A stretch of DNA of 64,000 nt, from assembly GCF_001311195.1 (NCBI RefSeq), contig NZ_BBAJ01000004.1, positions 1-64,000 of the forward strand, given 5' to 3'. Shown in pieces: positions 59,766 through 64,000 of this stretch (its first letter is position 1; each line of letters begins with the position of its first letter). Under the pieces are notes generated by a model. That model saw only the letters and a program-made list of their open reading frames with translations. It searched no databases and had not been told where the DNA came from. The DNA is from Lacticaseibacillus camelliae DSM 22697 = JCM 13995. Lineage in GTDB: Bacteria > Bacillota > Bacilli > Lactobacillales > Lactobacillaceae. Position numbers and translations under genes: made by a program.

Positions 59766-62125
59766 ATGACCACAGTCGGCCACTTAAGAAATGAATTACT
59801 GGCGACGTTTCGGCGCAACCCGCAGATCGGTTTTTCCACTGCGTCGCTGAATCGCGCGCTCAAATTGACGTCTGCCGAGGACTTTAAGGTGATGGTGCAG
59901 GCGCTCACCGGGCTCGAAAATGATGACTTGATTCATCAAGACGATAATCAGCGCTACATGCTCGGCGGCAAGCCGCAGAGCCTGGAAGGCGTGTTCCACG
60001 GCAACGAAAAGGGCTTCGGCTTTGTTGCCATCGAAGACCAGGACAATGATATGTTCATTGCCCCGCCGAACACCAAGTTTGCCATGGACGGCGACACTGT
60101 CGAAGTGACGGTGGTGCACCAGGCCCGGCCCGGCGACACCCGCGGCCCTGAAGGCGCGGTCACGAAGGTGGTCGAGCGCAAGAATACGCGCTTGGTCGGC
60201 GAGTACGCGCCGCTGTCTGATGCGGAGCACAGTCGGACCGGGTTCATTGGCACGGTCACCAGTCATGAGAAAAAATTGGCGCGCTATCCGATTTTTATCA
60301 AGGATAACGGCACCGTGCCGGAACGCGGCGACATGATCATGGCCGAGATCACCGAGTTTCCGAACGCCGACCGGCCGAACAGCATGGTCGGTTTGATCGT
60401 TCAGAACCTGGGCAACAAGAACGCGCCTGGGGTCGACATCATGTCGCTGGTGCTGGCCAACGATATTTACGTGGATTACCCGGATGACGCGATGGCCCAG
60501 GCCAACGGCATTCCGGATCACGTGACGGCTGAGGACCGGTTGGGTCGCCGTGACATCACCGATCAGCCGGTGGTCACCATCGACGGCGATGACTCCAAGG
60601 ACTTCGATGACGCGGTGGTGGCATGGAAGCTGCCCAACGGCAATTACCATTTGGGTGTCCACATTGCGGATGTGTCCTACTACGTCACGGAAGGCTCGCC
60701 GCTGGACAAAGAAACATACAAGCGCGGCACCTCGACTTACTTGGTCGACCGTGTCATTCCGATGCTGCCATTCCGGCTCAGTAACGGTATCTGCTCGCTG
60801 AACCCGAATGAGGATCGCTTGGCCATGTCGTGTGACATGGAGATCGATGGCGAAGGCCATGTGGTCAGCCACGAGATTTACCAAAGCGTCATTCGGTCCC
60901 ACGGCCGCTTGACCTACAACAAGGTCAACCAGGTGCTCGATGGCGATCCTGATGCGACTGCCGAATACGGCGACTTGGTCCCAATGCTCAAGCTGATGGC
61001 GGACCTGCACAAGATCCTTTACAAGATGCGCCATGGCCGCGGCGCCATTGACTTTGAGGAAAATGAAGCCAAAATCATTGTGGATGATGAAGGCACCCGA
61101 CCGACATCGTGCTGCGCGAGCGCGGCGTGTCCGAGCGCATGATCGAAAGTTTCATGCTGCAAGCGAACGAAACGGTCGCCGAGCATTACAACCGCATGCA
61201 CGTGCCGTTCCTGTACCGGGTCCACGAGACGCCGGATGAGGACCGGATCAAGGACTTTGTTGATTTTCTGGCCACGTTCGGCCTGCAGGTCCCGATCAAA
61301 AAAGGGCAGCAGGTGACGCCAAAGATGCTGCAAAACGTCAACACCGAAGTCGCCGGCACACCAGAGGAAATGATGGTCAACGTCAAGATGCTGCGCAGCC
61401 TGAAGCAGGCGCGGTACTCTGACGAGCCCCTTGGCCACTTCGGGATCGCCGCCAAGTACTACTGCCACTTCACGAGCCCGATTCGCCGTTATCCTGACCT
61501 GGTCGTTCACCGGCTGATCCGGACTTACGCGATCGAAGGGACCGGTGACAACGTTCAAACCAAGTGGGCGGAGAAGCTGCCGGACATTGCGGCCCAGGCC
61601 TCGACCCGTGAGCGGCACAGTGTCGACGCCGAGCGCGCCGTGGACGACCTCAAGAAGGCCGAGTTCATGGCTGACAAGGTCGGCGAAGAGTTTGATGCCG
61701 TGGTTTCCGGCGTTGCCGGATTTGGGATGTTTGTGGCCCTGCCGAACACCGTTGAAGGGCTGGTCCACATCACCCGGATGACGGATGACTATTATGGCTT
61801 CCTGGAAAGCCAGATGGCGCTGATCGGCGAGCGCACCCACCATATCTACCGCATTGGGCAGCCGGTGCGGGTGAAGCTCGAAGCCGTCGACGTTGAACAG
61901 CGTCAGGTCGACTTTTCGCTGGTGCCGACGGCTGACACCCCGACAACCGATCTGGCCGTGCCGAAGCAGCCCCGCCGCCAGCCGCGGCACGATGACCACA
62001 AGGCCGGTGCGCCCAAGCCTGGCGATCAGGCAAGCGGCACAATGCCAAGCGCCCGACCGGCCACGCCAACCGTTCCGCAACACGATCGGCAGCCAGGTCA
62101 AGGGTCACGCGACCCGTGGTGGTAA
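59766..62125 (+). CDS. rnr: Ribonuclease R (one or more frame breaks)
   Basis: This 3'-5' exoribonuclease of about 786 residues degrades structured RNA and works with tmRNA-SmpB. An N-terminal helix-turn-helix, cold-shock-like domains, the RNB catalytic core (TIDGDDSKDFDDAVVAWKL, DVSYYVTEGSPLDKETYKRG, TSPIRRYPDLVVHRLIR) and a C-terminal S1 domain (VVSGVAGFGMFVALPNTVEG) are present. One base is missing near 61093 (EGHPTDIVLRERGV expected). The basic tail after 61940 is low-complexity; an alternative frame runs to 62157, so the exact C terminus is uncertain. Confidence 0.94.
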
Positions 62126-62161: not shown

Positions 62162-62635
62162 ATGGCAAAGAAAATGAAGCCAAAGCCCGATAACCTACTG
62201 GCCCAAAACAAAAAGGCCTGGCACGATTACAACATTCTCGAAACTTACGAGGCGGGAATCGCCCTGACCGGGACTGAAATCAAGTCGGTGCGGGCAGGCA
62301 AGACCAACTTGCGTGATGGTTCATTCGCATTACGAATAATGAGGCCTGGCTGGTCAATGTGCACATCAGTCCTTACAAAGAGGGCAATCAGTTCAATGTT
62401 GACCCGCTGCGTTCTCGCAAGCTCTTGCTGCATAAAAAAAGAAATCGCCAAGCTGCTTGCTGCTTTGACCCAGCAGGGTAAAACCGCAGTGCCGCTGCGC
62501 ATGTACCTGAAGCATGGCTACGCGAAGGTGCTGATTGGCGTGGCGGAAGGTAAGAAGCTTTATGATAAGCGTGAAGCCTTAAAGAAAAAGGACCAGAAGC
62601 GTGAAATGGCCCGGGCACTGAAAGAACGCTATTAA
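62162..62635 (+). CDS. smpB: SsrA-binding protein SmpB (two compensating frame breaks)
   Basis: SmpB escorts tmRNA to stalled ribosomes. The 157-residue ORF looks intact, with [20 protein letters not shown] and [19 protein letters not shown] at the ends. Residues about 54-92, however, do not resemble SmpB. Adding one T near 62320 and removing one A from the A7 run at 62434-62440 restores [20 protein letters not shown] and the segment ending [11 protein letters not shown], which are true SmpB sequence. The protein sequence as written is therefore wrong in its core. RBS AAGGAAGG. Confidence 0.93.
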
Positions 62636-62637
62636 CA

Positions 62638-62674
62638 CAAAAAAATCCAAGCCGGGTGGGCTTGGATTTTTTTG
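62638..62674. terminator. Bidirectional terminator between smpB and the HIRAN gene
   Basis: AAAAATCCAAGCC / GGCTTGGATTTTT hairpin with A and T flanks, between convergent genes. Confidence 0.9.
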
Positions 62675-62680
62675 TCGTCT

Positions 62681-63082
62681 TCAGAGCCGCAGAAACACGT
62701 CGAGCCGAATGTAGGGCCAATTGCCTTTCATGGTCCAATCGGTGATCTTGGCGTAGACGTTCAGGCCGGCGTCTAACAGGCGCGCGATGACGATGTTTTC
62801 TTTCTTTGGGAGGTAACCGAGCTTGCGGCCGCTGGGCGTTTCGACTCTGGTCGCGAACGCGTCATAGGCGTTTTTCTCGCGCAGCAGTTTGACCTGCATG
62901 CCCAGTTCCAGGTCGCTGGTCAAAGTTTCTGGGTCGGCGACATGGGCGGTCCCTGCGACGTGATGGTTGATGAGAAGGATCTCGTCTCCTCCGGCAACAT
63001 GCTCAGCTTGACTCGGCATCCCGCCATGCCAAGGGGTCAAGCCGCTACCACCGGCGACCGGCTTGATTTCAAATTCACTCAT
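62681..63082 (-). CDS. HIRAN domain protein
   Basis: 133 residues. After a Gly-rich N-terminal stretch of about 45 residues comes a HIRAN domain: GTAHVADPETL, MQVKLLREKNAYDAFATRV, RKLGYLPKKENIVIARLLDAG and a terminal beta strand. HIRAN domains bind DNA ends or stalled-fork DNA in the helicase HLTF; as stand-alone bacterial proteins their role is unknown. ATG 63082 was chosen because AGGAG lies nine bases upstream; ATG 63091 would abut that site. It overlaps the preceding J-domain-like gene by eight bases, so the two form an operon. Confidence 0.75.
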   Translation of the reverse strand: MSEFEIKPVAGGSGLTPWHGGMPSQAEHVAGGDEILLINHHVAGTAHVADPETLTSDLELGMQVKLLREKNAYDAFATRVETPSGRKLGYLPKKENIVIARLLDAGLNVYAKITDWTMKGNWPYIRLDVFLRL

Positions 63083-63887
63083 TGGTTTCATCTCCTAAGT
63101 CGCCCACCAGCTGCCCGTAAAGGACGATATTGGCGGCGACCTGCTGTTTCAGCTGGTTGAGGGTCAGTTGTAAGGTGGCCTGGTGATGCGCGCGCCAGGT
63201 CTCGTTTTGGAGCTCTTTCTCGATGGTGAGCGGCCACTTTTGATGGAGCTGGACGTTGCGCCTCCGCTCCCTGGCCAAATCGGTCAACAGCTTGGCCAGC
63301 TGCTGGTGCAACTCAGGCAGTGATAAGGCTTCATCATCGCCATCATCCAGAATCGCCGCGATGGTTTGCAAAACCGCCAGCAAGCCGTTTGCATAGGCAT
63401 CAAGGACAATCAAAAATAATTTGGCATCGGCGGCGCTTTGATGAGGATGTAAATCGGGGTGCAACGCTTTGATCAGCTGCTTGTACAAGGCGTTCAGCTC
63501 GTCCGTCTGGGGAGCGGATAACATTGGCAGGGAGAGGTACTCCCTCGCAGTGGTCAGCTGACCGCGCATAACCGACAGCGAGTGGACCCGTTCTTCAAAC
63601 TGCTGCGTCACCCGCACTTGAATTGCAGGGAGGTCGATGGGGAGACCGCGATTGAGGTACTGACGAATCAGCCGGATCCGGTAGGCCGTTTCGTCCCGCT
63701 TCAGCTCGGCCTCATAAAGCGCGATCTCCAGGGGGCCAAATTGGGTCCAGTAAAAGGCCTCGAGGTTGGGGAGGCGATGGTTGGCCAAGGCGTCATTTTC
63801 CTGGACCGCATCCAGGAGCAGTTCTCGCACAACGTCCAGGCGAAGACGCGCCAAAGCCAGCTCGGGCGAAGACATTAATTCGTACAT
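63075..63887 (-). CDS. J-domain-like protein with internal HPD motif
   Basis: 270 residues, almost wholly helical. The segment ELNALYKQLIKALHPDLHPHQ places an HPD tripeptide at residues 143-145 after a helix of J-domain type, followed by KLFLIVLDAYANG as a possible helix III. The flanking regions are long charged helices with no family I recognise. A J-domain would recruit DnaK, but this is inferred from the motif alone. ATG 63887 has GGAGG eight bases upstream; the GTG at 63896 overlaps that site. It is the first gene of a two-gene unit with the HIRAN protein. Confidence 0.72.
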   Translation of the reverse strand: MYELMSSPELALARLRLDVVRELLLDAVQENDALANHRLPNLEAFYWTQFGPLEIALYEAELKRDETAYRIRLIRQYLNRGLPIDLPAIQVRVTQQFEERVHSLSVMRGQLTTAREYLSLPMLSAPQTDELNALYKQLIKALHPDLHPHQSAADAKLFLIVLDAYANGLLAVLQTIAAILDDGDDEALSLPELHQQLAKLLTDLARERRRNVQLHQKWPLTIEKELQNETWRAHHQATLQLTLNQLKQQVAANIVLYGQLVGDLGDETNE

Positions 63888-63948
63888 GCGGCGCACCTCC
63901 TTTTAAATCTATTATCCAGCCACGAGAAACCGGTTGCAAGCCAGGCCT

Positions 63949-63975
63949 AAAAAAAAGACCCGCTTGTAGCGGATC
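63949..63975 (-). terminator. Minus-strand terminator of a gene to the right
   Basis: On the minus strand, GATCCGC-TACAA-GCGGGTC (one mismatch) is followed by eight T. It would end a transcript coming from beyond the right edge. Confidence 0.65.
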
Positions 63976-63985
63976 TGTGCTGCGC

Positions 63986-64000
63986 TTACGCGTAAATGTA
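63986..64000 (-). CDS. Possible last codons of a minus-strand gene
   Basis: Read on the minus strand, the edge gives Tyr-Ile-Tyr-Ala then TAA, directly before the minus-strand terminator. Too short to identify. Confidence 0.25.
   Translation of the reverse strand, partial: YIYA

Follow-up and report, generated by a model that had tools for sequence, protein, structure and literature searches.

Two overlapping genes in the window, the whole 64,000-nucleotide stretch of Lacticaseibacillus camelliae DNA analysed here, encode a J-domain-like protein and a small HIRAN protein. The proposal that these proteins form one functional unit is well supported at the sequence level, because the genes overlap, are linked, and have agreeing gene trees across phyla. 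To judge from conserved residues and neighbouring genes, the unit could consist of a J-domain co-chaperone and a dedicated partner that binds DNA ends, through which DnaK would clear or remodel proteins at those ends, a reading that we favour tentatively. Both the J/HIRAN combination and the J family appear to be undescribed, and both parts belong or relate to known domain families.

Layout of the locus and distribution of the pair

The original prediction had placed overlapping J-like and HIRAN genes here, and a check of the sequence and its open reading frames bore this out: both frames are intact and lie on the minus strand (Table 1). The J-like gene starts at ATG 63887, with AAAAGGAGGTG directly upstream. 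ATG 63082 (133 aa) is probably the start of the HIRAN gene, in preference to ATG 63091 (136 aa), because AGGAG lies 9 nt ahead of it, within the J gene, and all 30 paired homologues have a Met at that position (residue 4), which in 24 of them is merely the ORF start used. Depending on the HIRAN start, the genes overlap by 8–17 nt; the probable overlap of 8 nt is as in coupled translation.

On one side of the pair a convergent smpB ends at 62635, and on the other a 394-aa cyclopropane-fatty-acid-synthase-like (cfa-like) gene lies beyond the window, both names being read from the sequences of the genes. On weak evidence, the pair looks like a two-gene transcript of its own, since hairpins lie at both ends and a promoter-like site precedes the J gene; terminator-like sites in 62500–64000 number four, against 1.8 expected by chance. 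Next to the pair, the frame of rnr is broken in two and part of smpB is out of frame (59766–62125 and 62162–62635), and on contig C2 of the same genome a dnaJ match is likewise split between overlapping ORFs. These frame breaks are probably indel errors of a low-quality assembly, which is 84.5% complete with 5.9% contamination.

Table 1 Features of the J-like/HIRAN locus, in positions of the window.
Feature	Position	Strand	Basis
Terminator-like hairpin, between convergent smpB and the HIRAN gene end	62652..62665	.	Motif scan, sequence
HIRAN protein gene, 136 aa from ATG 63091	62681..63091	-	ORF, Pfam PF08797
HIRAN beta-barrel domain (residues 37-135)	62687..62983	-	AlphaFold2, fold searches
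J-like protein gene, 270 aa, all-helical, central J-domain core	63075..63887	-	ORF, translation, family profile, model
J-domain core: helix II, HPD loop, helix III (residues 125-166)	63390..63515	-	AlphaFold2, J-domain alignment
HPD codons, residues 143-145, inside KALHPDLHP	63453..63461	-	Sequence, conservation
Promoter-like TTGCAA-17-GATAAT, upstream of the J gene	63911..63939	-	One found against 0.7 expected by chance; weak
Terminator-like hairpin upstream of the J gene, in the gap between the J gene and the cfa-like gene	63956..63976	-	Motif scan

Five of 15 sampled Lacticaseibacillus genomes carry the pair, each time adjoining smpB. The window J protein matches its relatives in L. hegangensis and L. 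jixianensis at 71 and 61%, and those in L. yichunensis and L. mingshuiensis at about 30%. One genome (G277) has the cfa-like gene directly after smpB, an empty site. A 301-genome sample of the family contains HIRAN in 38 genomes and the J protein in only five, with none in the other genera sampled.

A pattern scan of 84,980 species with the peptides KALHPDLH and A[FR]Y[WT][SHT][EQ]FG[PD] returned 56 loci, of which 49 (L037–L085) are family members, from Lacticaseibacillus, Clostridia, Bacteroidales, Synergistes, Leptolinea and Verrucomicrobia. A HIRAN ORF follows downstream on the same strand in 46 of the 49; the other three are cut by contig ends (L077, L078) or are a 145-aa J fragment (L085). 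With the ORF calls used, the spacing in 37 of these 46 loci lies between a 25-nt overlap and a gap of 18 nt. The remaining loci, L086–L092, were dropped: six are ordinary J-motif ORFs, with Pfam-scanning confined to L086, and in L090 no ORF matches.

Searches free of any HPD requirement gave 28 copies, comprising 13 from the order of the window, four from 299 genomes sampled from the phylum of a clostridial MAG and 11 from a 325-genome sample of the order of an Oscillospiraceae MAG; this count leaves out the seeds (G591, G587 and G594) as well as G931, which has the same J stretch as L051. HIRAN is linked in 19 of the 28 (8 + 4 + 7). The phylum sample has HIRAN in 71 genomes and the J family in five, seed included, and all five J genes lie beside HIRAN. 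Also dropped were a short ordinary J match (L104/G557) and the matches in the other 99 phylum-sample genomes, which are mostly local (profile positions about 130–171); four of these that were aligned (L115, L117, L118 and L129) are DnaJ-like, and a few that cover 65–171 with internal stops were left out of the counts. On viral contigs, three of three J loci have an adjacent HIRAN gene. The predicted linkage of the two genes in other genomes thus extends far beyond Lactobacillales.

Variants of the arrangement were also seen. In three clostridial loci (L041 5799–6596, L042 1833–2636 and L043 5799–6596) and one of the window's order (L096 681–1508, minus strand), J and HIRAN are separated by a conserved gene for a protein of about 270 aa; the intervening proteins of L041 and L096 have no match in Pfam, PADLOC or PHROGs. 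In a clostridial genome, ORF 2–3328 of L145 (G793:C12:3000-8800) fuses RecJ parts (DHH, DHHA1, RecJ_OB), HIRAN and DEAD/Helicase_C. In the 299-genome sample, 26 HIRAN matches fall in ORFs of 1,145–1,272 aa, among which the domain scan covers L145 alone.

For the pairs compared, distances in the J tree and the HIRAN tree correlate with r = 0.915, against at most 0.37 in 2,000 permutations of the labels; when Lacticaseibacillus is removed, r is 0.905 (permutation maximum 0.39). Shared species history also raises such values, an effect that permuting the labels does not remove. The comparison used 50 of 53 pairs, the J gene being broken or cut in L071, L080 and L083. One Synergistaceae pair and one Leptolinea (Chloroflexi) pair group as sisters in the J tree and the HIRAN tree alike (local support 0.85 and 0.56). 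This is expected if the unit moved between phyla whole; mis-binning of MAGs is also possible.

Fold and conservation of the two proteins

The prediction of an all-helical protein with an internal HPD agrees with the AlphaFold2 model (pLDDT 91.4, pTM 0.80), in which a long N-terminal helix and others precede helices II (125–142) and III (152–166), which flank the HPD and are followed by a short helix (170–180) and C-terminal helices. The predicted helices 98–119 and 170–180 are suitably ordered for helices I and IV of the J fold; a canonical helix I, with the DYYxxLGV of ordinary J-domains, is not recognisable. Long coiled-coil arms dominate the model.

Judged by profiles, assignment to the J-domains is weak on the single sequence and firm on the family. 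The window protein alone matches PF00226 with 17.4 bits (E = 0.0047), under the cut-off of 27.8; among nine family members scanned singly, seven scored 18.9–24.6 and two (L100, L101) had no match. A PF00226 match at E ≤ 0.01 was found in 22 of 30 chosen members. Searched against the PDB with the family profile, J-domains come first (best 2ej7, E = 1.4e-4), and profile–profile comparison with 11 ordinary J-domains gave a probability of 97.5 and E = 5.3e-12 over columns 131–171 (helix II–HPD–helix III), an E value that overstates the significance because all 11 had been retrieved through likeness to the same motif. Foldseek with the J model gave no match below E 0.1; Foldseek and VIA returned coiled coils and helical bundles and no J-domain, which proves nothing either way. 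Across Pfam, NCBIfam, PHROGs and PADLOC no family covers the whole protein, and PHROG 15863 (function not known) weakly matches two relatives across the HPD stretch.

Conservation of the HPD among homologues, also predicted, held for most copies and failed in some: the motif is conserved, yet not invariant. It is intact in 20 of the 28 copies found without requiring it (9 + 4 + 7), namely in 17 of 19 HIRAN-linked against three of nine unlinked copies (Fisher p = 0.005, descriptive only, with related copies treated as independent). The HPD was counted only in copies found by profile or BLAST, a profile that is HPD-rich and leaves some bias; pattern-scan loci cannot test conservation, because the scan peptide KALHPDLH contains the motif. 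Sequence identity to the window protein is 19–31% for most rows of the J alignment.

About three lineages account for the losses. In genus g79 (Lactobacillales), four genomes have HPA or HPL and no HIRAN match in the genome; the Asp of the HPD and Lys 140 are each kept in none of the four, against 25 of 26 elsewhere for Lys 140, and Tyr 135, Arg 136, His 143, Pro 144, Ala 164 and Tyr 165 are still retained. The fifth g79 genome (G470) has no J family member. Two unlinked copies of the 325-genome order sample have NPD. HIRAN linkage is not always accompanied by an intact HPD, because two linked copies (G1061 and G1131, or L180 and L181) have HPA and overlap a divergent HIRAN gene; they offer a natural test of the unit with the HPD altered. 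Among copies that keep the motif, two have no HIRAN within about 9 kb on either side, and in G330 the HIRAN gene lies about 49 kb from the J gene and is nearer to other lactobacillary HIRANs than to the paired group. For G932, G1196 and G920, unlinked refers to the surroundings of the J gene. G943 has one unlinked copy and one HIRAN-adjacent, stop-interrupted copy, the latter entered in the counts as HIRAN-linked and HPD-bearing. The coupling of HPD to HIRAN, which had looked perfect in Lactobacillales and the first clostridial sample, broke down in the 325-genome order sample.

The neighbour was predicted to be a stand-alone HIRAN protein, and it matches Pfam PF08797 with 46.9 bits (E = 2.4e-12; cut-off 24.7), no other Pfam family being matched. 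The core of its AlphaFold2 model is mostly above pLDDT 90, and the N-terminus is of low confidence (residues 4–31 below 50). The model shows the HIRAN beta-barrel with its two helices and superimposes on lp_0118 (3k2y) with Z 17.8 and an rmsd of 1.5 over 100 residues (30% identity), and on the HIRAN domain of HLTF with Z 12.1 and an rmsd of 2.6 over 97 residues. Free and DNA-bound HLTF HIRAN are among the best folds, both at about Z 12, and yeast Rad5 scores about 10. The C-terminal part of the Hachiman helicase HamB (8vxy_B 1093–1167) also aligned, with Z 7.2 and an rmsd of 3.0 over 74 residues, slightly above Cas12f and SmpB; this defence helicase may perhaps contain a HIRAN-like fold.

The residues of the HLTF-type nucleotide pocket are kept in the paired HIRANs. 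Arg 71, Asn 74, Asp 77 and Ala 80 do not vary among the 30 chosen paired HIRANs and are also present in lp_0118 and HLTF; Asn 74 corresponds to HLTF Asn 91, counting from Tyr 93. Position 76, equivalent to HLTF Tyr 93, is Y, H or F in 27 of 30. Position 50 is H, F or Y in 30 of 30 and is equivalent to HLTF Tyr 72, a correspondence mapped by eye through lp_0118 because the automatic alignment with the HLTF fragment is doubtful there. PMC4666394 describes Tyr 72 and Tyr 93 of HLTF as stacking on the bound dinucleotide. PMC11237066 reports that HLTF HIRAN binds the 3′-OH end of single-stranded DNA, that N90A-N91A disrupts HIRAN function, and that removal of Cas9 from 3′ DNA ends needs, or is guided by, this domain. 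Prokaryotic HIRAN domains are termed uncharacterized in PMC11090510.

A possible role at DNA ends and its alternatives

In the co-chaperone reading, the HIRAN protein would bind the 3′ end of single-stranded DNA, and the coiled-coil arms of the J protein would hold the HIRAN protein, the substrate or both. The HPD loop would bring the general DnaK and fire its ATPase, and cycles of DnaK would pull off or remodel proteins caught on DNA ends, on stalled forks or on intermediates of repair. DnaK would thus supply the ATP-driven force, the role played by the translocase motor in human HLTF. We infer DNA-end binding, a physical complex, DnaK activation and the substrate; DNA-end and DnaK action would fit the conserved residues and some of the neighbours. 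That the unit is a chaperone-powered analogue of HLTF and Rad5, spread across bacterial phyla as a pair of genes, with HIRAN reading 3′ ends and J recruiting DnaK, is a more speculative possibility.

The upstream neighbours of the pair hardly recur across loci; the J/HIRAN pair is therefore the conserved element. A DEDDh 3′-5′ exonuclease gene lies downstream in 12 related clostridial loci, 10 from one lineage and two from its sister. It directly follows the HIRAN gene in L044, L050, L060, L061, L063, L067–L070 and L072, and comes one gene later in L053 and L079. We scanned 79 of 86 flanking proteins, from genera other than that of the window and with neighbours of at least 120 aa. Among the best 25 of 71 families matched, most are housekeeping, and the matches include RNase_T (nine), Patatin (four), AlkZ-related (two) and HhH-GPD (two); a Y-family polymerase lies in the neighbourhood of L056. 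The DNA-repair flavour of the neighbours, mostly from one lineage, is only suggestive because the neighbour counts had no control set.

An Hsp70-family match was found in 16 of 16 genomes tested, all of them other than the window's own, with fragments only in G587. Judged by length and span, the matches look like the general DnaK and short MreB-type matches, with extra Hsp70-like proteins in some genomes. As a candidate for a dedicated Hsp70 nearby, we considered an ORF of about 533 aa that recurs downstream in Oscillospiraceae loci; in L044, the sole locus scanned, it is an ABC-F type ATPase and the candidate was rejected.

The J-like protein could instead be a coiled-coil scaffold for HIRAN, its J core being inherited and not, or not mainly, a dock for DnaK, so that no chaperone action is involved. 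We consider this unlikely. The two linked HPA copies (G1061, G1131) speak for it and are the strongest evidence against the favoured mechanism. The NPD, HPA or HPL motifs of six unlinked copies, the PF00226 score below the cut-off in the window, the lack of a match in L100 and L101, and the dominance of coiled-coil arms in the model would all suit a scaffold. Set against it is the retention of the HPD in 17 of 19 linked copies despite deep divergence (19–31% identity). The Asp of the HPD and the preceding Lys are expected to contact DnaK, and the loss in g79 hits exactly these two residues while the rest of the core stays, which again argues for a DnaK dock.

An anti-phage or conflict system, in which HIRAN would sense phage DNA ends and the J protein trigger a response, is improbable. 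Bacterial HIRANs with HipA-like kinases and diDNases are proposed to act in defence, according to PMC8262856 and PMC11706625; the window HIRAN weakly matches the PADLOC candidate PDC-M03B (1.7e-7), and the distribution of the pair is patchy, all of which would suit such a system. Against this, the three J proteins scanned have no PADLOC match, and among the best 25 of 140 PADLOC families matched by the 79 neighbours, the DEDDh/PDC-S48 exonuclease alone reaches more than two neighbours, the rest being scattered. Nor did tblastn find a match in 72,556 plasmid records (two queries) or in 50,697 phage records (searched with the Synergistes homologue L054 alone), and viral contigs gave only three pair loci.

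Still less probable is an RNA or ribosome unit, working with DnaK as an accessory of trans-translation or ribosome rescue. It would account for the alignment of SmpB chains to the HIRAN model at Z about 6 and for the convergent smpB next to the pair in each of the five Lacticaseibacillus genomes that carry it. Against it, the Z scores of HLTF and lp_0118 are much higher (12–18), the DNA-pocket residues of the HLTF type are kept, and among the best 25 of 71 neighbour families no smpB recurs in other genera. Finally, an accidental linkage within one genus of two genes with separate jobs, for which the presence of the pair in only five of 15 genomes of the genus, and of HIRAN in 38 and J in five of the 301 genomes of the family sample, might speak, is scarcely credible, being already contradicted by linkage in several phyla with changing flanks and by the agreeing trees.

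Significance and comparison with known systems

The classical cases of chaperone use in phage and plasmid initiation are lambda P and P1 RepA. Beyond these, no J protein dedicated to DNA transactions of the bacterial chromosome is known to us. Should the co-chaperone reading hold, the pair would link Hsp70 to DNA ends in bacteria, and would provide a function for a group of unexplained stand-alone HIRAN proteins and for a J-protein family that has no name. Being small and conserved, the unit lends itself to direct tests with purified proteins. Among the papers listed for HIRAN with J-domains or Hsp70, none appeared to describe the pair, many of the matches to "hiran" probably being the author name Hirano; PMC11706625 contains neither "DnaJ" nor "J domain".

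The J protein resembles J-domain proteins (PF00226) in its helix II, HPD loop and helix III, with Y, R and K before the HPD and F and AY after it. It differs from them in that its J core is internal, between coiled coils, with no DnaJ_C match and a score below the family cut-off. Like the HipN/HipL proteins and the diDNase-HipA-HIRAN clusters described in PMC8262856 and PMC11706625, the pair is a small conserved HIRAN unit, in some cases with a DEDD exonuclease. In those systems, unlike in the window, HIRAN is either fused to a HipS-like or kinase domain (HipN, HipL) or has a HipA-type kinase in its gene cluster; the best 25 of 71 neighbour families of the pair include no kinase. The lp_0118 protein of Lactobacillus plantarum (3k2y) has the same HIRAN fold, and we have seen no published function for it. 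With HLTF and Rad5 the window HIRAN shares the fold, and its pocket residues match Asn 91 and Asp 94 of HLTF and the aromatics at 93 and 72, the last through lp_0118. In contrast to HLTF and Rad5, it is a stand-alone protein of 133–136 aa with no motor or RING domain, and the proposed motor would be DnaK, recruited through a separate J protein.
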